Shown here: positions 4,189 to 33,132 of the stretch, one piece after another
How the letters are laid out: each line of letters starts with the position of its first letter
Numbering within the stretch: the stretch's first letter is position 1
Assembly: GCA_040752815.1 (NCBI GenBank)
Contig: JBFMGC010000002.1
Location: forward strand, 99,490 to 132,621
DNA length: 33,132 bases
Origin: Candidatus Zixiibacteriota bacterium
Lineage (GTDB): Bacteria; Zixibacteria; MSB-5A5; GN15; FEB-12
Reading direction: 5' to 3'
Notes under the pieces: generated by a model
Database searches by the model: none
What the model was told of the DNA's origin: nothing
Seen by the model: only the letters and a program-made list of their open reading frames with translations
Position numbers and translations under genes: made by a program

Positions 4189-5430
4189 CTATTTGATGTC
4201 GAGGATGTCCCGCCTCAGCAGCTCCAGCGCCGCGTTGACCGCGCGCGTGCGGTTGATCGGCCGCTCGGTACCGAAACGGTAGTGCTTCGCGTACGCGGTG
4301 TGGGCCGAGGCGAGCCCGATGTATGTCGTGCCCACGGGCTTCAGTTCCGTGCCGCCGTCGGGGCCGGCTACTCCGGTGATCGAAAGCGCGTAGTCACTCT
4401 TGAAGAGCTTCCGGCAGCCGGTCGCCATCGCCAGCGCACACTCCTCGGAAACCGCACCGTGCTGATTCAGGATGTCCTCGGTGATTCCAAGCTGCGCTGT
4501 CTTGACGTCGTTATCGTAGGCAACGACACCGCCCCGAAAATACACAGATGCCCCCGGTATATCGGTAATGGCCATGCCCAGCTGTCCCCCGGTGCACGAC
4601 TCGGCGACTGCCACTGACTTGTCATTGTCCCTGAGCAGTTGCCCGACAACTCCGGCGAGAGTATCATCGTCGCGCCCGTAGATGTAATTGCCGACCGCTT
4701 TCTCGACATGCCGGGCCAGGCGAGCCGCTTTCTCGTCGGCGTCGAGTTTGGAAGCCGCTGTCGCTATGATGCGCAGGTCCACTGAGCCGAAATGCGGCAG
4801 GTATGCCAGCTTTACACCCGACTCGGTTTTCAGCTCCGGCGCTATCAGGTCAGACAGGCGCGATTCCCCCGCTCCCGTGGTTCGCAGCGTAATAGTACTT
4901 ACCACCTGGCCGATATCGAGCCTCGCCAGATACGGCGCCACCTCATCGGTCATGATCTGGCGCATCTCCGCCGGCACCCCCGGCAGCGCGATGAACACTT
5001 TTCCCTTTTCAGCAATGCAAATTCCCACCGCCGATCCAATCCGGTTGGGGAAAAATGTCGCCCCCTGTGGCAGGAGCGCCTGGTTTTGACTGAGGGCGGG
5101 CATCTCCATGCCGCGATCGGCAAAACGGCGGCGGATCGCCTCCAGAACATCGTCGTTAAGGATCAGATTCCGCTTGAAGACCTTGACTATGGCCCGCTTG
5201 GTGAGGTCGTCGTCGGTAGGCCCCAGCCCGCCGGTGGCGATCACAACCTGCGAGCACTTGAGCGCGAGACGAAACGCTTCTTCCATCGCTTCGACTTGAT
5301 CGCCGACCACGCTCGTGGCCTGGACCGTGAAGCCGAGACCGGTGAGCTGCCGGGCGATAAAAGGGGCGTTGGTATCGACCGTGTAGCCCAGCAGAATTTC
5401 GTCGCCGATCGTGATAATCTCAGCTTTCAT
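4189..5430 (-). CDS. cinA: CinA, nicotinamide-nucleotide amidohydrolase with N-terminal COG1058 domain
   Basis: The full-length 413-residue form is present. Residues 1-170 are the MoaB/MogA-like COG1058 domain (GDEILLGYTVDTNAPFIAR near the start, ATGGLGPTDDDLT near residue 65), which in studied homologues hydrolyses ADP-ribose. Residues about 255-410 are the CinA C-terminal (PncC) domain that converts NMN to nicotinate mononucleotide for NAD recycling. Seen there: VAESCTGGQLGMAI, with the catalytic Ser region, and GVAGPDGGTELKPVGTTYIGLA. The start ATG at 5430 has AGGA 11 bases upstream. It is the third gene of a tight pgsA-pgpA-cinA run (27 bases after pgpA). A cinA/pgsA/recA neighbourhood is common in bacteria, where cinA is often linked to DNA uptake, though the enzymatic role is better supported. 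Confidence 0.95.
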   Translation of the reverse strand: MKAEIITIGDEILLGYTVDTNAPFIARQLTGLGFTVQATSVVGDQVEAMEEAFRLALKCSQVVIATGGLGPTDDDLTKRAIVKVFKRNLILNDDVLEAIRRRFADRGMEMPALSQNQALLPQGATFFPNRIGSAVGICIAEKGKVFIALPGVPAEMRQIMTDEVAPYLARLDIGQVVSTITLRTTGAGESRLSDLIAPELKTESGVKLAYLPHFGSVDLRIIATAASKLDADEKAARLARHVEKAVGNYIYGRDDDTLAGVVGQLLRDNDKSVAVAESCTGGQLGMAITDIPGASVYFRGGVVAYDNDVKTAQLGITEDILNQHGAVSEECALAMATGCRKLFKSDYALSITGVAGPDGGTELKPVGTTYIGLASAHTAYAKHYRFGTERPINRTRAVNAALELLRRDILDIK

Positions 5431-5457
5431 CTGTCCGCACTTCCTGAAGGGGTCAAG

Positions 5458-5916
5458 CTACGCGAATCGGTTCACGGCGTAAATGGCAATCTGCACGAAG
5501 ATGGTCGTGTGGACCCCAGCGGCGATATCATCCATAGTCACTCCCAGGCCGCCAGGCAGCTTTTCGAGCTGGCGGGCGGGCCAGAGTTTGACTACGTCGA
5601 AAGCTCGAAAGGCCACAAACGCGGCGATATACATCTGCAGAGAGTACGGCACAAACAGCAGCGACACAAACATCCCGGCCCACTCGTCGATCACAATCCG
5701 GCGGGCGTCGTGGCCCATAATCGGCTCCGCCAGCGACGCCACCGCGATGGCAAGCAGCGAGGACAGAACCGCGGCGCCTATAGTGAGCGACGGATCCCCT
5801 TTGAGCAGAAACCACCCGATCAGCCAGGCGGGAATCGTGCCCCAGGTGCCGGGGAATGGTTTGAGGTAGCCGGTGAAGAATCCGGACGCCAGGAGCTTGA
5901 TCACAAAGTTCTTCAT
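5458..5916 (-). CDS. pgpA: Phosphatidylglycerophosphatase A
   Basis: The ATG at 5916 gives 152 aa and has AGGA about 7 bases upstream; a longer frame to 6051 overlaps pgsA and lacks family similarity. The enzyme dephosphorylates phosphatidylglycerophosphate to phosphatidylglycerol, the step directly after PgsA. The family signatures GYLKPFPGTWGT (near residue 13) and IVIDEWAGMFVS (near residue 73, with the conserved acidic pair) are visible. Four hydrophobic segments fit an inner-membrane enzyme. It begins 8 bases after pgsA, so two consecutive steps of acidic phospholipid synthesis are made from one transcript. Confidence 0.93.
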   Translation of the reverse strand: MKNFVIKLLASGFFTGYLKPFPGTWGTIPAWLIGWFLLKGDPSLTIGAAVLSSLLAIAVASLAEPIMGHDARRIVIDEWAGMFVSLLFVPYSLQMYIAAFVAFRAFDVVKLWPARQLEKLPGGLGVTMDDIAAGVHTTIFVQIAIYAVNRFA

Positions 5917-5924
5917 GCCCAGTC

Positions 5925-6512
5925 CTATTTGAGTACCGATTTGATCATGTGGAAGTATTTCACGATATAGTCCACCCCGGTCCAGACCGTCACCGCCGCG
6001 GTGATCCAGAGCAGCCAGCCGGAATAGTAACGATAGTCGAACTGAAGCCACACGCGCGCCGGATGGTCGAAATGCTCGAGGCTGCTGATCAGGCAGATAT
6101 ATCCCATGACCGTGCCGACTACGGTCATCTGGAGGAAGGTCTTCACTTTGGCCATCCAGGTGGGGGGAATGACCACCCCCTTGTAGGCGGCCAAAAGGCG
6201 CAGCCCGGTGACCGAGAACTCACGCCCGACAATCAGCACCACCGGCAGCGGGGAGGCGTAGCCGAGCGCGATAAACGAGATCAGCGCCGACGACACCAGG
6301 ATTTTGTCCGCCAGCGGGTCCATAAACTTGCCGAACCCGGTGATCACACCCATCTTGCGAGCGTAGTAACCGTCGGCCAGGTCAGTCAAAGCCGCCACCA
6401 GAAACAGCCCGAGGGCGATCATCCGCATGTAGAAGTTGTCGACCAGGAAGAAAAACATGAAGACTGGCGCCAGGCCTATGCGGATGAGGGTGAGCAGGTT
6501 GGGCGTGTTCAT
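5925..6512 (-). CDS. pgsA: CDP-diacylglycerol--glycerol-3-phosphate 3-phosphatidyltransferase
   Basis: This 195-aa integral membrane enzyme makes phosphatidylglycerophosphate from CDP-diacylglycerol and glycerol-3-phosphate. It carries the complete CDP-alcohol phosphotransferase signature in the order D-G-x2-A-R-x8-G-x3-D-x3-D: ADGYYARKMG followed by GFGKFMDPLADK (residues about 46-71). MNTPNLLTLIRIG at the N-terminus is the typical PgsA start. About five further hydrophobic segments follow. It opens the pgsA-pgpA-cinA run. No strong ribosome binding site is seen before the ATG. The 326-base gap upstream, before recA, holds a hairpin repeat and a 31-base palindrome that might control it. Confidence 0.95.
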   Translation of the reverse strand: MNTPNLLTLIRIGLAPVFMFFFLVDNFYMRMIALGLFLVAALTDLADGYYARKMGVITGFGKFMDPLADKILVSSALISFIALGYASPLPVVLIVGREFSVTGLRLLAAYKGVVIPPTWMAKVKTFLQMTVVGTVMGYICLISSLEHFDHPARVWLQFDYRYYSGWLLWITAAVTVWTGVDYIVKYFHMIKSVLK

Positions 6513-6617
6513 GAACCAGCAAGGTAGGCGGTTGGCCGGCTGGTGTCAACCGAGCGGGCGAGGGTGGTATTGCCTCGCACCTGGACTAGCGAAGCGGGGA
6601 TGGGCAAATAACCCGTG

Positions 6618-6643
6618 CGTGGTGGACGTCCTCATCCACCACG
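6618..6643. repeat. GTGGTGGAC hairpin repeat, copy 1
   Basis: CGTGGTGGA and TCCACCACG form a perfect 9-bp stem around CGTCCTCA. The element at 18329-18354 is the same family in the opposite orientation, matching over about 30 bases with few differences. It sits in the gap between recA and pgsA. Confidence 0.75.
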
Positions 6644-6662
6644 ACCCGGCGCGCTCCAGAAC

Positions 6663-6693
6663 AACTTGATATTCCAAATTGGCATATCAAGTT
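6663..6693. promoter_or_regulatory. 31-base near-perfect AT-rich palindrome between recA and pgsA
   Basis: AACTTGATATTCCAA and TTGGCATATCAAGTT are reverse complements at 14 of 15 positions around one central base. The element is AT-rich, unlike the GC-rich repeat hairpins nearby. No T-run follows, so it is not a classical terminator. It lies 151 bases before the pgsA start and 145 bases after the recA stop. A protein binding site is possible; no factor can be named. The rest of the 6513-6838 gap contains only the hairpin repeat and no gene. Confidence 0.55.
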
Positions 6694-6838
6694 CAAACAG
6701 GTGGCCCCAATACTGATTGGCGAGCTACTTATCGAGTGCGCCGCACCCTACCCGTGAACACAATCTACAAATTCACAAACTGATTAATGGCGGCATCGAA
6801 GCGGCCCCCGCCCTACAATCCTTCTGCCACCAACTTGC

Positions 6839-7903
6839 TCAAAACTCCCCTTCGGCGCCTTCCTCCGAGTCCGCCGGGCGGCTGCCGGCCGCCTCCGGCT
6901 TTGCGCTCGGCACCGCGCGCACCTTCGCCAGAATCTCGTCGAATACCTGCTGATTGGTCTCGATAAACTGCCGCGCGTTCTCCCGTCCCTGGCCGAGTCG
7001 CGCCCCCTCGTAGCTGAACCAGGCGCCGGACTTCTCGATAATGTTCCGCTCCACCGCCATATCGAGCAGTTCGCCCGAACGCGAAACACCCCTGCCGTAG
7101 ATGATGTCAAACTCGCACTCGCGGAACGGCGGCGCCACTTTGTTCTTCACCACCCGCACACGGGTTCGGTTGCCGACCACTTCCTGGCCGTCTTTGATAG
7201 CCGCGATACGGCGGATATCAAGCCGCAGCGACGCATAGAATTTCAGCGCGTTGCCGCCGGTGGTAGTCTCCGGGTTGCCGAACATCACCCCGATCTTCAT
7301 GCGGATCTGGTTGATAAAGACAATCGCCGTGTGCGACTTGGACGTAATCGCGGTCAGTTTCCGCAGCGCCTGGGACATTAGCCGGGCGTGAAGCCCCATG
7401 TGCGCGTCGCCCATCTCACCCTCGATCTCCGAGCGCGGCGTCAACGCCGCCACCGAGTCGATCACGATAATATCGACCGCACCGGAACGGACCAGCGTCT
7501 CGGTGATATCGAGTGCCTGCTCGCCGCTGTCGGGCTGGGCCACCAACAGATCCTCGGTGTTGACCCCCAGCGCATGGGCATACTGCGCGTCGAGCGCATG
7601 CTCGGCGTCGATAAACGCCGCCTGCCCGCCCAGTTTCTGGGTCTCGGCGATCATGTGCAGCGCCAGCGTGGTCTTGCCCGACGCTTCCGGGCCAAAAATC
7701 TCAATCACCCGCCCGCGCGGTATCCCGCCTACGCCCAGGGCGTGGTCCAGCCCGATCGAGCCGGTGGGGATAGTCTCGACTTCGAGCACGGTGCCGTCGC
7801 CAAGACGCATAATAGAGCCTTTGCCGAAGGAGCGTTCGATTTGCGTGAGCGCGGCGGAAAGCGCTTTTTTGCGGTCGGCCGCGGTTGATGAGGACTGGGC
7901 CAT
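6839..7903 (-). CDS. recA: RecA recombinase
   Basis: RecA polymerises on single-stranded DNA, drives strand exchange and triggers LexA self-cleavage. All family landmarks are visible: [16 protein letters not shown] (Walker A), [25 protein letters not shown] (Walker B), LRKLTAI and [24 protein letters not shown] (loop L2). The ATG at 7903 gives 354 aa, the usual size, and starts MAQSSS, with GGCAGG 6 bases upstream. A frame extension to the ATG at 7945 exists but has no ribosome binding site. The acidic C-terminus ([10 protein letters not shown]) is typical. A palindrome at 7955-7970 lies just upstream and may be an SOS operator. thpR is upstream on the same strand, 288 bases away. Confidence 0.97.
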
Positions 7904-7954
7904 CTCCGACCTGCCTTTCTTAAGCTGGATCTTACCTCGTTCCATGACGCGAAA

Positions 7955-7981
7955 GTTCGTCTATACGAACGGTCAAATATA
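7955..7981 (-). promoter_or_regulatory. Candidate recA promoter/operator with GTTCGT-N4-ACGAAC palindrome
   Basis: GTTCGT-CTAT-ACGAAC (7955-7970) is a perfect 6-bp-arm palindrome 52 bases upstream of the chosen recA start. On the minus strand a TATATT hexamer (7976-7981) lies just before it, so transcription would begin within or at the edge of the palindrome, a usual operator position. No good -35 was found. The motif differs from the Bacillus GAAC-N4-GTTC box and from the E. coli CTG-N10-CAG box. A LexA site is inference from position only. Confidence 0.45.
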
Positions 7982-8191
7982 TCACTTTTGCGCCTGCCCC
8001 AATAATCATTTTGACCACTGTCAGATCCTGTCAGTGAAAATGCGGGTTGACACAAATGAAAGTGGGGAGTCTAAGGGCGCCGCCCCTTATATAGAGGCCT
8101 ATAACTGTTTATATGTAATAGACTTAGAGCTCGCTCCTTATGCTGCTATTGCCAGACCACACTCTCACGAGGAGAAACGAGATTTGGCATC

Positions 8192-8767
8192 CTACTCTTG
8201 GGATTTTGCCTGCCCCAGCATCGCCTCGTGTAATCGCTCGTAAATCGACCCTTGAGGTGTCAGAGTCGATTTGAAAAGCACCAAACGGTCAAGCTTTGTC
8301 GGAATCGGCCGCGGTATAAAAGAATCCAGGTAGGCCGCCAGATCATCCACCCGGCGACCCTCCCGCACCCTCCCCAGGGTCAGATGCGCTTTGAACGGCC
8401 TCTTCTCTTTCTCAAATCGTAGCTCATGCATCCTGTGATCGATTTCCCGCGCCATCTGCGCGGCACCTTCAAGCGGCGCAGACCCTCCCACCCAAATCAC
8501 TCGCGGTCTATTCAGATTCGGGAAGCCGCCCACCCGGTCCAGTTTCGTTTCGAACGGTTGGAAGTGAGAGGCCACTTGGTTAATCGCCGTCGTGATCCGC
8601 GGCACCAGCTTCAGGTCGGTGTCGCCAAGAAACTTGACCGTCAGATGGATGTTTTTCGCCGGCACCCACTTTACATCGGGTCCTTTGGGGCGAAAAACAG
8701 CAAGCAAGCGGTCAAGCTCGATCTCAACCTCGTGCGGTAACGGGAGGGCTATAAAAAGTCGGACCAT
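8192..8767 (-). CDS. thpR: RNA 2',3'-cyclic phosphodiesterase (ThpR/LigT)
   Basis: The 191-aa frame from the ATG at 8767 (GGAG 9 bases upstream) starts MVRLFIALPLP, the usual beginning of the family; upstream ATGs in the same frame are less likely. Both catalytic H-x-T-x motifs of the 2H phosphoesterase fold are present: IHLTVKFLG near residue 46 and AHLTLGRVREGRR near residue 129. Members hydrolyse 2',3'-cyclic phosphate ends of RNA in the cytoplasm and can join tRNA halves in vitro. A thpR-recA neighbourhood is seen in other bacteria. It starts 30 bases after the BtrH_N-like gene, so the two are probably transcribed together. Confidence 0.9.
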   Translation of the reverse strand: MVRLFIALPLPHEVEIELDRLLAVFRPKGPDVKWVPAKNIHLTVKFLGDTDLKLVPRITTAINQVASHFQPFETKLDRVGGFPNLNRPRVIWVGGSAPLEGAAQMAREIDHRMHELRFEKEKRPFKAHLTLGRVREGRRVDDLAAYLDSFIPRPIPTKLDRLVLFKSTLTPQGSIYERLHEAMLGQAKSQE

Positions 8768-8797
8768 CTTTATGCACTCCATCAAGAGAGACTGCAC

Positions 8798-9805
8798 TCA
8801 CTGACACGTCGCCAGGTAGTTTCTTATGTACTCTATACCTTCGGATTCGGCCGCCTTTGCATCCCTGACAGCTGACGACAGAGTTTTGAGGACAACGCTT
8901 TCCGCGTCGCGGGACCGAGGTGAGTCATTCCAGACCGGTCTCAGGCAGACGGCCGTATCAGCAAAGCACTTGGTCGCTCTCACCAGATCTGAAATATCTC
9001 CTGCGATGCTTGCCAGGAACTCCCTCGCGTAGCAGCGGGCGGAAAAGTAGTGGCTGGCGTAATAGCGCGCATGTGCGCAAATGTCGACACCGATCCGGTC
9101 CGGGTCACCGCGTTCAACGATATCGGCCCAGCGGCCAAGCGCAGTCGACCATGCGTCATAAGCTAGCGGCCCGTCCTGGTATTTGGGGCGATCATTCCAT
9201 TTGCGCTGGTCGGCATGATCAACAGCCGTGCGGAGCGCCCTGAGTACCGCTTCGCTTTTCGACTGATAGGTTCTGTTTCCAGGTATGATCACTGATAGAA
9301 TGTCAATACCGTTTCGACCCAGATTGTCGAATGGGAGGCTCACCGGCTCGCCTAGATAACTTAGTCCCAAATACACCTGGAGGCGGTGGTTGTACCCTGA
9401 GATGACCCCCCATTCGCTCTGGTGCATATCCCAGACCACGCAGGGAACCCCGGAATCCAGGGACTCGGTAATGCACCTGTGGGCTTCCTCGCGGCGTTCC
9501 GCGTCGCTTTCTCCCTCATCCCACAATCGTGAAATGTGGGTGCAGCCGTAGCCAACTTGCTCGAATGCCTCGGGTAGGACTTTTCTCCACTGGAACACAC
9601 TCATGGCGCTCGGACAAAGGGTTGGAGAGGCCATGATGCGAAAAGCGAAGCCACTGCTTCCCATCAGCCACACCGGATCCAGCGCACCCGACAGGTGATG
9701 CAGGACAGTGGCTTCGCTCGCCATGTACGAATGAACGATTCCCGGCTCGCCCCTGCGAGCGGCATCGCGGTCGCGATACCACGTAAGTGATTTAAGCGAT
9801 TCCAT
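8798..9805 (-). CDS. Uncharacterised protein, possible BtrH_N / C39-like fold
   Basis: The ATG at 9805 gives 335 aa; a TTG extension to 9877 is possible but unsupported. I do not recognise it firmly. The first 210 residues resemble the butirosin-biosynthesis BtrH N-terminal / C39-like papain fold: a His-containing opening (GIVHSYMASEATVLHHLSGA), a glycine turn (LMGSSGFAFR), then DSGVPCVVWDM followed by EWGVISGYNHRLQVYLG. These are the 'private substrate loop and GY' features of that fold. The expected N-terminal catalytic Cys is not evident (Ser in HSYMASE), so it may be an inactive binding version. The remaining 120 residues are helical with many Tyr, Cys and Asp. No signal peptide. It lies directly upstream of thpR and overlaps a possible small lipoprotein frame at its 5' end. 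Confidence 0.55.
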   Translation of the reverse strand: MESLKSLTWYRDRDAARRGEPGIVHSYMASEATVLHHLSGALDPVWLMGSSGFAFRIMASPTLCPSAMSVFQWRKVLPEAFEQVGYGCTHISRLWDEGESDAERREEAHRCITESLDSGVPCVVWDMHQSEWGVISGYNHRLQVYLGLSYLGEPVSLPFDNLGRNGIDILSVIIPGNRTYQSKSEAVLRALRTAVDHADQRKWNDRPKYQDGPLAYDAWSTALGRWADIVERGDPDRIGVDICAHARYYASHYFSARCYAREFLASIAGDISDLVRATKCFADTAVCLRPVWNDSPRSRDAESVVLKTLSSAVRDAKAAESEGIEYIRNYLATCQ

Positions 9806-29210: not shown

Positions 29211-29939
29211 TCACACCAACCCCACCATCTGGCGAAGGCGGCTTATCTCGGCGCGGGTGAGATGACGGTACTGCCCGGTCCGGAGCGATTTCAGTTGAAT
29301 ACCGGCGAATTCCACCCGGCGCAGGCGAATGACCGGATGGCCCACCGCTTTGCAAAGCTGTTTCACTTCTCGCTTGCGCCCCTCGGTCAGAAGCAGCCGC
29401 AGCCGCGTTTGATCGGCGCCGTATCCCAGGATGAGCACCTTGGCGTGTCCGATTGCGCCATCGTCAAGTTTGATCCCGCGCTTTATCCGGTCGGCGTCTT
29501 CTTTGTCGAATCTACCCTCCACCTGCGCTTCATAGATCTTCGGTACCTGATATCGGGGATGGGCCAGCCGGAAGGCCAGATCGCCGTCGTTAGTAAGCAA
29601 CAGCACCCCTTCGGCGTCATAGTCGAGCCGTCCAACCGGATAGACTCGGTGAGGCAAGTTCCTGAGGTAGTCGACCACTGTCCGTCGCTTGAACGGATCG
29701 TGCAGCGTGGTCATGGTCATGTTGGGCTTGTTAAGTACTACATAGACTTTTTCAGTCACCGGCCTGGCCTCGACACCGTCGACTTTGACCAGGTCCGTAT
29801 CGGTGTTTACCACTGTGCCCCGCTCGGTGAGAGGACAACCGTCAAGCGTGACCCGACCGGCCGTAATCAGGTCATCGGCTCCCCGGCGCGAGGTCACCCC
29901 GCACAGGGAAAGGTACTTGTTAATGCGAATTAGAGACAT
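29211..29939 (-). CDS. rluB: Ribosomal large subunit pseudouridine synthase (RluB/RsuA type)
   Basis: 242 aa. Residues 1-60 are an S4 RNA-binding domain (IRINKYLSLCGVTSRRGADDLI). The RsuA-type catalytic domain follows with PVGRLDYDAEGVLLLTNDG (catalytic Asp) and LTEGRKREVKQLCKAVGHPVIRLRRVEF, characteristic of the RluB/RluE/RluF/RsuA group. RluB-type enzymes convert a uridine of 23S rRNA to pseudouridine; the precise target here is not provable. It starts 38 bases after scpB, a gene order (scpA-scpB-rluB) common in many bacteria. Confidence 0.92.
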   Translation of the reverse strand: MSLIRINKYLSLCGVTSRRGADDLITAGRVTLDGCPLTERGTVVNTDTDLVKVDGVEARPVTEKVYVVLNKPNMTMTTLHDPFKRRTVVDYLRNLPHRVYPVGRLDYDAEGVLLLTNDGDLAFRLAHPRYQVPKIYEAQVEGRFDKEDADRIKRGIKLDDGAIGHAKVLILGYGADQTRLRLLLTEGRKREVKQLCKAVGHPVIRLRRVEFAGIQLKSLRTGQYRHLTRAEISRLRQMVGLV

Positions 29940-29977
29940 ACCGGGTTATGGCACCCAGCTAACACCGGTTTTCGCCT

Positions 29978-30799
29978 TCAGGAGTCGCCCGCTCCGGCAG
30001 CGGCCGGTTGCTCGGACTCGGCGCGAGTTTCATCCGGATCGAGCGGCTCATCCGGCGATTCGGCCACTTCGCCTTGCCTTTGCAGTACGAGCCGGGCGAC
30101 ACCCTCGTTTTCAGGCGACGGTTCCTCGTCGATCCCGTCGGGAATGCCGTCTTCAAGTCGCTCCCGACGCTCCGGATCGAAAGTGCCGTCGGCGACATTC
30201 AGTTTCACCGGCTGGTTATCGCTACCAAGCACAAATGCCATCTCGGTCTGGCGCTGCGGCTCAGCCGAGGCAATCATCTCCTCGATTTCTTCCATCCTTG
30301 GGAGGTCTTCGAGACGAGCCAGCCCGAAGAACTTGAGAAATTCGTCGGTAGTGCCGTACTGCAGCGGCTTGCCGACCGTGTCGGCGCGGCCGGTAATCCG
30401 GATGAGGTTCTTCTCCAGGAGCGTACGGATTACACCGTCGGAGGCAACCCCGCGAATGTGCTCGATATCAATTTTGGTGGTCGGCTGGCGGTAGGCTATG
30501 ATAGCCGCCGTCTCCAGCGCAGCGCGGCTGAGACGAAGCTGCCGCCGCCGGGTCAGCAGGTTCTCCACCACGCCCTCGTACTCTGGCAGAATGTAGAACT
30601 GGTATCCGCCGGCGAGTTCCCGTATGCGGAAACTCGATCCCGCCGCCGCATAGTTGGTGTTCAGCTCCGCCACCGCGAAGGCGATTTGCGCCGGGGTGAG
30701 GTCGTTCAAAACGCCGCCAATTCGGCGCGCCGGCAGCGGTTCGGGTGAGCCCAGGATCAGGGCTTCAACTTTGGAATTCCGGTATTGCTCGTCGGTCAT
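29978..30799 (-). CDS. scpB: Segregation and condensation protein B
   Basis: 273 aa. ScpB binds the kleisin ScpA and with SMC forms the condensin that compacts and segregates the chromosome. Family segments visible: VEALILGSPEPL, LTRRRQLRLSRAALETAAIIAYRQPTTKIDIEHIRGVASDGVIRTLLEKNLI (the winged-helix core), and GKPLQYGTTDEFLKFFGLARLEDLP. The C-terminal 100 residues are a low-complexity, acidic tail (rich in Glu, Asp, Pro, Ala), longer than in the usual 180-200 aa proteins. Its ATG overlaps the scpA stop (ATGA), so the two are translationally coupled. Confidence 0.95.
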   Translation of the reverse strand: MTDEQYRNSKVEALILGSPEPLPARRIGGVLNDLTPAQIAFAVAELNTNYAAAGSSFRIRELAGGYQFYILPEYEGVVENLLTRRRQLRLSRAALETAAIIAYRQPTTKIDIEHIRGVASDGVIRTLLEKNLIRITGRADTVGKPLQYGTTDEFLKFFGLARLEDLPRMEEIEEMIASAEPQRQTEMAFVLGSDNQPVKLNVADGTFDPERRERLEDGIPDGIDEEPSPENEGVARLVLQRQGEVAESPDEPLDPDETRAESEQPAAAGAGDS

Positions 30800-31599
30800 A
30801 CAGTCACACTCTGCGATTCGTTGTTGGCATAGTCAACCAGGTCAATCTCTCTCAGCGGCGCGTTGATATGCTCGCCGGGATATACTCTGACTTCGCTGAA
30901 CGGCAGCGCCTGGTGGATGCGGATACGATGCGTTCGCGCCAGTTCGAGCACCGCCACGAATGTCACCACCGCGACAATCTTGTGCGGAGCATCCGAAAAC
31001 AGGTCGAGAAACGTGGCCGATTCGCGCTGCCGAAGAAGTTGCACCACGCGCAGCATCCGCTCTTCGATCGTCACCCGCTGCGCGTTCACCTCATGTACTT
31101 CTCGCGCCGGTTTGGTGGCCAGGACATCGCGGAAAGCGACAATCAGATCATACAGGGAGGTCATCGGCTGAAGGTCGACCGCTCCGGTGATCTGCTCCAC
31201 CGGCGACGGCGGTATGACGTAGTGTTCTTCGATTCTGGCCCGTTCCCCGAGGATATCGCCCGCCTCTTTGTACTTCTTGTACTCGACCAGCGCCATGATC
31301 AGTTCTTCGCGCGGATCGGGCTCGTCCTCGTCGGTCTCGTCCTGCGGCAGAAGCAGCCGGGTTTTGATCCGGATCAATGTCGCCGCCATCAGGATGAACT
31401 CGCCGGCTACCTCCAGGTCGAGCGTTTTCATTAGCTCGATATAGCGTAAATACTGGCTCGTGATCCTTGCGATCGGGATATCGTATATATCAACTTCTTC
31501 CACCTTGATCAGGTGCAGAAGGAGATCGAGCGGGCCGCTGAAAATCTCAAGATTGACCCGGTAGTTGTCGGTTTGTGTGTCGAGAGTCTCCTCGGTCAT
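30796..31599 (-). CDS. scpA: Segregation and condensation protein A (kleisin)
   Basis: 267 aa. Residues 10-80 carry NLEIFSGPLDLLLHLIKVEEVDIYDIPIARITSQYL, the classic ScpA N-terminus that contacts the SMC neck. The middle has a Glu/Asp-rich loop with LPQDETDEDEPDPREEL. The C-terminal winged-helix region shows TFLDLFSDAPHKIVAVVTFVAVLELARTHRI. It overlaps trpS by four bases at its start and scpB by four at its end, a fully coupled operon. Confidence 0.95.
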   Translation of the reverse strand: MTEETLDTQTDNYRVNLEIFSGPLDLLLHLIKVEEVDIYDIPIARITSQYLRYIELMKTLDLEVAGEFILMAATLIRIKTRLLLPQDETDEDEPDPREELIMALVEYKKYKEAGDILGERARIEEHYVIPPSPVEQITGAVDLQPMTSLYDLIVAFRDVLATKPAREVHEVNAQRVTIEERMLRVVQLLRQRESATFLDLFSDAPHKIVAVVTFVAVLELARTHRIRIHQALPFSEVRVYPGEHINAPLREIDLVDYANNESQSVTV

Positions 31600-32600
31600 T
31601 TCTTCTTTTCCCGATAGGCCATTTTCATGGCCGACCGAACCTTCTCCATCACGTTTTGCGCCCGCTGCCGAGCACGCGCCGCGCCGGTGGCCAGCACGTC
31701 CCAGACATAATCGGGCCGCTTCACCAGTTCGGCGCGACGCTGACGAATGGGCTCCAGGCCGGCGTTGAGATTGCCCGCCAGTCTCATTTTACAATCCACA
31801 CACCCGAGCTCTCCCGATCGGCAGCCGGGGGCGATTTCGGTCTCCGCTTCGGGCGTGTAAATCCGGTGCAGCAGGTAAACCGGGCACTTCTCCGGGGTCC
31901 CGGGATCCCCTTTGCGGACCTTCTTCGGGTCGGTAAAATAGCCGCGAATTACTTTTTCGGTCTGTTTGTCGGTGAAGTCGATCGGAATGTGATTCCCGAG
32001 CGACTTGGACATCTTCCGATTGTCACTTCCTAGAATCAGTGGTATTTCGGTCAAAAGCACCTGCGGCTCGACCAGGACCTTTTTGTAGACTGTATTGAAC
32101 CGCCGGGCGAGATCGGCCGCTAACCAGATATGTTTCTCCTGGTCCTTTCCGACCGGCACCTTGTGAGCGTTATACACACAAATATCCGCCGCCTGGAGGA
32201 CCGGATATCCCAAAAAGCCGTATGAATCGAGGCCTTCTTTCTTCTTCTCCAAATAGGTCGGTAGGCGGGTCAGGGTCGGGATCGAAATCAGCATCGAGAA
32301 GATCAGGTGCAGTTCGGCGTGCTCCTTGACCTCGGACTGGATGAAGAGCGCGCACTTGTCCGGGTCGAGCCCCGCCGCGAGCCAATCGATAGTCATCTGC
32401 AAAACGCGGTCTTTCAGCACCGAGGTGTCTTCGTAATCGGCGGTCAGGGCGTGCCAGTCGACAATGCAGAGATACATCCAGTACTGGTCCTGAAGGCGGA
32501 CCCAGTTCCGGAGGGCGCCTTCGAGATTGCCGATATGAAGCGCGCCGGTGGGCTGCATGCCGGAGAGAATAGTTTCTTTCTTCGGTGCCGTTTCGGTCAT
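31596..32600 (-). CDS. trpS: Tryptophanyl-tRNA synthetase
   Basis: 334 aa from the ATG at 32600. A class I aminoacyl-tRNA synthetase: GMQPTGALHIGNLEGALRNW (HIGH-type motif) near residue 15 and NRKMSKSLGNHIPI (KMSKS) near residue 195. VDWHALTADYE and PVGKDQEKHIWLAADLARRFN are TrpS signatures. It charges tRNA-Trp and lies first in the trpS-scpA-scpB-rluB run. A Cys-containing loop (CRSGELGCVDCKMRL) after residue 255 is like that of several bacterial TrpS proteins. No strong ribosome binding site is seen. Confidence 0.96.
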   Translation of the reverse strand: MTETAPKKETILSGMQPTGALHIGNLEGALRNWVRLQDQYWMYLCIVDWHALTADYEDTSVLKDRVLQMTIDWLAAGLDPDKCALFIQSEVKEHAELHLIFSMLISIPTLTRLPTYLEKKKEGLDSYGFLGYPVLQAADICVYNAHKVPVGKDQEKHIWLAADLARRFNTVYKKVLVEPQVLLTEIPLILGSDNRKMSKSLGNHIPIDFTDKQTEKVIRGYFTDPKKVRKGDPGTPEKCPVYLLHRIYTPEAETEIAPGCRSGELGCVDCKMRLAGNLNAGLEPIRQRRAELVKRPDYVWDVLATGAARARQRAQNVMEKVRSAMKMAYREKKK

Positions 32601-32947
32601 AGTACACTCTGTAACGCCATAACAGACCGCGATGGTAGGTGCGGGGTCGAACTAAAGCAACTAAAAAGGGGGGATGCAGCGTAAGGTCCTGCCATCTAAA
32701 AAGTTTCAAGCGCCCACGCTTCAGTTGCGAATTGACAATCCCCTCTCCGTTACCTATACTCCACTTGGACAGGATTGGACTCGGTTCATGCGTCCCGTCG
32801 TTATTGCTTTTTCACACATGGCACGAACACAACCCACCTGTCTCGGAAGGGCGCTCGTGGCTGCGGCTATTTACGCTCCCGGCCATGCACGTGATCACGT
32901 TCCAGCAGTTCAACCTTCTACCCCATCCCATGAAAGGAGATAGTAAA
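32601..32947. other. Divergent intergenic region and leader of the 34-aa gene
   Basis: This 347-base gap holds the consensus promoter described separately and a leader of about 180 bases. A 51-codon open frame starting at 32788 lies in the leader, without a convincing ribosome binding site, and may be a non-functional coincidence or a leader peptide. I see no terminator or riboswitch that I can name. No promoter for trpS is obvious on the minus strand. Confidence 0.45.
32732..32760 (+). promoter_or_regulatory. Consensus sigma70 promoter
   Basis: TTGACA (32732-32737) and TATACT (32755-32760) are spaced by exactly 17 bases. Transcription would begin near 32767 and read a leader of about 180 bases before the 34-aa gene. 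It points away from trpS, so it belongs to this small gene or a leader RNA. Confidence 0.78.
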
Positions 32948-33052
32948 ATGAAGTTAATCTCCCTGCCGGGCTTTGGCACAGCGGTGAAACCGCCACCCTG
33001 TATCGGCAAAGGCCCGTATTACATCATCTGCGGCAAGTACAAAGACGAGTAG
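32948..33052 (+). CDS. 34-residue two-cysteine peptide, unknown
   Basis: An ATG at 32948 lies 8 bases after AAAGGAG, and the frame closes at TAG after 34 codons. The peptide begins MKLISLPGFGTAVKPPPC and ends IGKGPYYIICGKYKDE. Cys18 and Cys28 are ten residues apart and could form a disulfide, metal site or thioether. There is no clear signal peptide or hydrophobic helix; Gly, Pro, Lys and Tyr dominate. I recognise no family. Support for reality: a good ribosome binding site, a consensus promoter about 190 bases upstream, and no overlapping gene. No maturation enzyme is visible inside the window, but the window ends 80 bases later. An upstream ATG at 32930 in the same frame is less likely because the ribosome binding site lies within it. 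Confidence 0.65.
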   Translation: MKLISLPGFGTAVKPPPCIGKGPYYIICGKYKDE

Positions 33053-33132
33053 TCTCGTAGTGAGTCATGGGGCGGGCCCCCCAAACCCCGCGCCAGATAG
33101 TAGGGCCAGACACAAACATTGAACCCGCCCGC

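Follow-up and report, generated by a model that had tools for sequence, protein, structure and literature searches.

Does the 34-codon reading frame close to the right end of the window (the whole analysed stretch of 33,132 nucleotides) encode a product, and if so, what becomes of this product in the cell? The frame is bounded by ATG 32948 and TAG 33050-33052 on the + strand and encodes the 34 aa peptide MKLISLPGFGTAVKPPPCIGKGPYYIICGKYKDE (32948..33052), with Cys18 and Cys28 as pointed out in an earlier note on this DNA. A promoter of the sigma-70 type, TTGACA-N17-TATACT (32732..32760, +), precedes it and matches the consensus at 11/12 positions: TTGACA at 32732-32737 and TATACT at 32755-32760 are separated by a spacer of 17. 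It is the sole sigma-70-like site of at least 9/12 in the last 2.1 kb of the window. In all four of the closest homologues, the first precursor gene is preceded within 400 nt by a site of at least 10/12 with a perfect TTGACA, compared to a background of 0.065 such sites per 400 nt. These sites are located at -219 (genome G056), -217 (G082), -372 (G008) and -261 (G040), and the first two match the distance found in the window (-216). Upstream, at 29211-32600 on the - strand, housekeeping genes for a pseudouridine synthase, ScpB, ScpA and a class I W/Y tRNA synthetase (trpS-like) run divergent from the peptide gene.

The 5' untranslated leader comprises about 180 nt (32767..32947, +) when transcription is assumed to start at 32767, 6-7 nt past the -10 box. 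It ends behind the Shine-Dalgarno sequence AAAGGAG (32933..32939, +), for which relatives mostly have AAGGAGGTG. Promoter, leader of about 180 bases, ribosome binding site and closed frame had all been proposed in the earlier note and were located where it had placed them. The frame is also open 5' of ATG 32948, which would make 137 aa with the GTG at 32639 as start, and a further in-frame ATG is present at 32930. ATG 32948, which the earlier note had chosen, is the right start codon, because homologues begin with MK or MR where it aligns, a few bases 3' of an AGGAG-type site.

A frame of this shortness might be a chance ORF without product, and homologues are required to decide. A holdout profile built from the six closest relatives, with the window copy left out, ranks the frame first of the 1018 ORFs of the window (E=7e-10 vs 1.3 for the best unrelated one), and 0/5000 shuffles of the peptide reach its score. 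Relatives exhibit a coding substitution pattern: The precursor genes of the congeneric genomes G039 and G052 differ at 13 bases, 11 of them third positions and one the start codon (ATG/TTG), and not a single amino acid is altered; their flanks differ at 15-39 per 60 sites. Amino acids are hence kept more than third codon positions, the comparison that had been recommended for this gene. These data refute a chance ORF, to which practically no weight can be given.

At the DNA level, a search in 60 relatives yielded matches in the own genome alone. The first searches with the peptide in the order gave mostly weak matches, and the first real one was in G056. When a family profile of 18 members was run against 132 genomes of the uncultivated phylum Zixibacteria, the precursor family was found in 15 of them (E<1e-5). 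Its members are short Cys-containing peptides with the consensus MK[LIF]I..P...KP.xC...P..IIC. In G056, three tandem peptide genes lie upstream of orthologues (58% and 62% identity) of both radical SAM enzymes, rSAM1 and rSAM2, that the genome of the window encodes on another contig, C104. One of the three tandem copies, MKLINFPQLQINPQSPYYIICMINEPPVCRKYKP, contains PYYIIC like the window peptide, so that this motif does recur in a related genome with modification enzymes nearby, which the earlier note had suggested to look for. The start MK[LIF]I..P is common, yet the cores differ among the G056 tandem copies, as in a leader followed by a variable core. In three further genomes, the peptide gene stops 78-103 bases short of rSAM1: G082 (MKIITMPGIEPILKPYLIICGVKGPLRIICGHY), G008 (MKLIRLPNDLMVKRPHYIICKVNGPLKIICGVW) and G040 (MKFIEKPQMKKTDRPCPCYKMFFPIICSAD). 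About ten other cassettes carry the peptide gene between rSAM1 and rSAM2, many of them with a KPCPCYxxLFLILPPW-like core, and the G040 core connects the two precursor subtypes.

At least one Cys is present in every precursor found; number and spacing of the Cys residues vary, and the constant feature of relatives is a Cys within the KP-C / I-I-C core. The proposal that the peptide carries a modified Cys pair is thus borne out in one half: Modification is strongly supported by the linkage of the family to two radical SAM maturases, while the Cx9C pair itself is not conserved. In the window peptide, residues 1-13 (MKLI-x-L-P..., 32948..32986, +) are the presumed leader or recognition segment, of which MK[LIFM][IVL]..P is common to most members. 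Residues 14-34 (KPPPCIGKGPYYIICGKYKDE, 32987..33049, +) form the presumed core, inside which PYYIIC is encoded at 33014-33031. The C-terminus is CGKYKDE and does not end in Tyr. The ORF is best read as the gene of a RiPP precursor, in which an N-terminal leader is followed by a Cys/Tyr/Ile core at the C-terminal end. None of the precursor family models of Pfam and NCBIfam matches the peptide, a tblastn search of a phage collection gave zero matches, and no precursor of the window family turned up next to rSAM1 relatives from other phyla (Planctomycetota, Acidobacteria, Cyanobacteria and others). At the loci L085, L056 and L061, diverged rSAM1 and rSAM2 genes are accompanied by longer precursors that are richer in Cys (MIFIVHPTRS...KKAISILPP, ...CSTFCTTLCKIFFPIIPPW) and may be a bridge to Clo7bot-like Cys-rich peptides.

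Could translation of the ORF, rather than its product, control the downstream genes? A regulatory leader peptide or attenuator had been considered in the earlier note, and a short ORF which follows a 180-nt leader and is situated 5' of a larger operon in the clade of the window agrees with it. However, it is the amino acids that are conserved and not the leader RNA: The leaders of relatives do not align, and a leader RNA that is structured or conserved was dropped as a candidate. An Rfam scan of the window gave zero matches, and no terminator-like site was seen on the + strand near the ORF. Furthermore, two to four tandem copies are found at several loci (three in G056, four in G055, one of these with an internal stop, and two each in G039 and G052), and the position of the gene varies: 5' of rSAM1, between the two enzyme genes or 3' of rSAM2. 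A regulatory leader is therefore very improbable.

The precursor reading gains its main support from gene linkage. In 14/14 other genomes with a precursor, the peptide gene lies within about 1.5 kb of rSAM1 and rSAM2, and every profile match with E<1e-5 is at an rSAM1 locus save that of the window, where the contig ends. rSAM2 of the C104 type occurs in 18 genomes, and its co-occurrence with the precursor by genome is highly significant (Fisher p=1.6e-14). This strict linkage to two enzymes of the peptide-maturase type in every relative argues against an unmodified secreted signal or bacteriocin whose adjoining enzymes act on another substrate. The small size of the peptide and its Cys residues would suit such a role, but its N-terminus, judged by eye, does not resemble a signal peptide, and we consider such a role very improbable. 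No exporter or protease is common to the cassettes. In G040 (L070, 3963-6633), two tandem rSAM1 genes precede rSAM2 and are accompanied by one precursor. An origin of these two rSAM1 genes from different precursor subtypes was rejected, as both fall into the clade of the window in the rSAM1 tree.

In the genome of the window, the enzyme pair is present once, at the start of C104, and the linkage crosses a contig break. As the earlier note had remarked, the downstream context is cut off: The window ends with its contig (C2 of genome G000), which stops at 132621 in an assembly of 136 contigs. A whole-genome search with the last 433 bases of the window identified one other place, the start of C104. 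Gene end and 3' flank (33034..33093, +) share 82% identity with the opening 60 bases of C104; past these 60 bases, the similarity is no better than that of shuffles (344/1000). C104 (3033 bp) starts inside a paralogous peptide gene (...KYNDEESRSEPCAGPTKPGA*). In place of the window's TAG it has GAG, and its frame continues, so that for one copy the exact end of the peptide is uncertain. On C104, the site of the window stop is about 103 nt before rSAM1. Most likely, C104 is the continuation of C2, the two being separated by a short stretch missing from the assembly in which a second, tandem precursor is encoded. At its other end (L036, 2741-3033), C104 carries, by eye, a truncated Ada-like ORF and then, after a good ribosome binding site, what looks like the start of another gene (ATGTCTCGTGGTCGCCCTGTTCCG); this may be a repeated element and explain the contig end.

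Window peptide and C104 enzymes are on separate contigs that no single contig joins, and this is a point against the best explanation. Either the precursor could belong to another, unassembled enzyme cassette, or C2 and C104 could be one locus from two strains with one precursor. The alignment of the C2 end and the C104 start on the same element (82%/60 bases, never an exact overlap) and the fragmentation into so many contigs would be in line with this. By contrast, 82% identity is low for strain variants and tandem precursors are common in the family, which favours a tandem copy; another cassette is disfavoured by the single rSAM2 of the C104 type in the genome. In the rSAM1 tree, C104 groups with enzymes that have their precursors upstream of rSAM1 (support 99/98). 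The precursors of this group carry the IIC core as does the window peptide, which supports the pairing of C2 with C104. Taken together, we regard these two alternatives as rather unlikely. With a probability of about 0.88, the 34-mer is the RiPP precursor for rSAM1 and rSAM2 of C104.

rSAM1 of C104 is a 447-aa radical SAM/SPASM protein of a CteB-like family of about 440 aa. rSAM2, whose gene overlaps the rSAM1 end, is a PqqE/MftC-like radical SAM/SPASM protein of 345 aa. Pfam PF04055 is found in both enzymes and the SPASM domain PF13186 in rSAM2; the SPASM domain of rSAM1 is recognised by TIGR04085 (48 bits vs a cut-off of 27). C102, C106 and C109 of the CxxxCxxC motif are invariant in 14 rSAM1 proteins. 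The closest NCBIfam families of rSAM1 are TIGR04463 and the Clo7bot maturase; for rSAM2 they are MftC, heme-type and PqqE-type enzymes. All these scores stay far short of the curated cut-offs. An AlphaFold model of a Zixibacterial rSAM1 (CP070839.1, L086; pLDDT 89.8) assigns the enzyme to the CteB fold class: Residues 4-432 align full length with CteB (5WGG, 5WHY), N-terminal domain included, with Z 28 at 19-20% identity, and TigE follows with Z 24. Residues 7-86 of the model comprise three strands and three helices, an arrangement compatible with a PqqD-like RRE, the superposition on CteB and TigE being one of the whole chain.

Several known systems resemble the cassette in part. In the CteB/SCIFF/ranthipeptide systems, too, a short Cys-containing precursor is encoded beside the maturase gene. 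However, the Zixibacterial precursor lacks the six-Cys or CX3D pattern and is linked to a second radical SAM enzyme, and rSAM1 of C104 scores under the cut-offs of both the SCIFF maturase model (67 vs 425) and the PapB family NF047865 (113 vs 340). Whole-length matches of rSAM1 were obtained with TIGR04463 (300 bits vs a cut-off of 525, best matches E ~1e-89) and with the maturase of the Clo7bot system (TIGR04334/TIGR04333; 298-322 bits vs a cut-off of 600). The Clo7bot precursor model TIGR04333 does not match the window peptide at E<=1 and gives no more than sub-threshold hits to two of the relatives that have diverged most. For rSAM2 of C104, the best NCBIfam match is MftC of the mycofactocin system (173 bits vs a cut-off of 265). 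The mycofactocin precursor MftA has the C-terminus IDGMCGVY (PMC11162802), which the ends of the G082 and G008 precursors, IICGHY and IICGVW, resemble. By contrast, the window peptide ends with KYKDE and not with MCGVY and does not match a mycofactocin precursor model, and mycofactocin-type accessory genes were not recognised beside the cassettes. Two-rSAM RiPP systems are known with thuricin CD (PMC12093266) and with bicyclostreptin, HghB/HghC (reviewed in PMC11002830). Like the Zixibacterial cassette, they combine two radical SAM enzymes and small precursors in one short cluster; the comparison covers cluster layout, precursor sequences and host phyla, of which the latter two differ. In the paper library searched, no relevant publication on Clo7bot, TIGR04463 or Zixibacterial RiPPs was found.

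The genome of the window carries a second RiPP-like locus on contig C58 (L073, about 4754-9647) with two tandem 37-aa peptides, MIFLI[DE]PNSVKPPVCSTKC..FCG..xPLYGID. It resembles the window family in its tandem short precursors of the type M.FLI.P...KPPVC, its CteB-like radical SAM enzyme (40% to rSAM1 of C104) and a second one that is PqqE-like by eye. It differs in the core, ...CSTKC..FCG..xPLYGID, and by eye an ABC-transporter-like gene follows; M16-peptidase-like genes (also by eye) are upstream on the opposite strand. A peptide related to the C58 type, MEYLIDPEEVTTVGVCPKYNPCTTFCRIKPLYGIPIIEI, is encoded near another radical SAM enzyme at L057 / L094. This suggests that the phylum has a second peptide family, the C58 type.

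How would the window peptide be processed? Transcription from the own sigma-70-type promoter and translation would yield the 34-mer, whose MKLIxLP segment would most likely be bound by the RRE-like N-terminal domain predicted in the rSAM1 model. By analogy with CteB, rSAM1 would most likely introduce a Cys-based thioether into the C-terminal core (KPPPCIGKGPYYIIC...). Subsequently, rSAM2 would add a second radical modification; judging by its kinship to MftC and PqqE, this may be a C-C bond or an oxidative decarboxylation. The individual bond is not predictable, since number and spacing of the Cys residues vary. As the cassettes share no exporter, the product may remain intracellular or leave by a general exporter. 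A more far-reaching and rather doubtful reading is a Zixibacteria-specific RiPP class in which a peptide of 27-40 residues is modified twice and becomes a conserved small redox cofactor or signal and not an antibiotic. As part of the same tentative reading, rSAM1 would form the thioether, and the MftC/PqqE-like rSAM2 would oxidise or cross-link the aromatic C-terminal part. A cofactor or signal would agree with the KPCPCYxxLFLILPPW-like core, which is strongly conserved in many members, and with the absence of a dedicated exporter.

Altogether, the 34-codon gene appears to belong to an unnamed radical-SAM RiPP family that about one in ten of the sampled Zixibacteria carry. Its trio of one precursor and two different SPASM enzymes, with varying core and gene order, offers a testable division of labour on one peptide.
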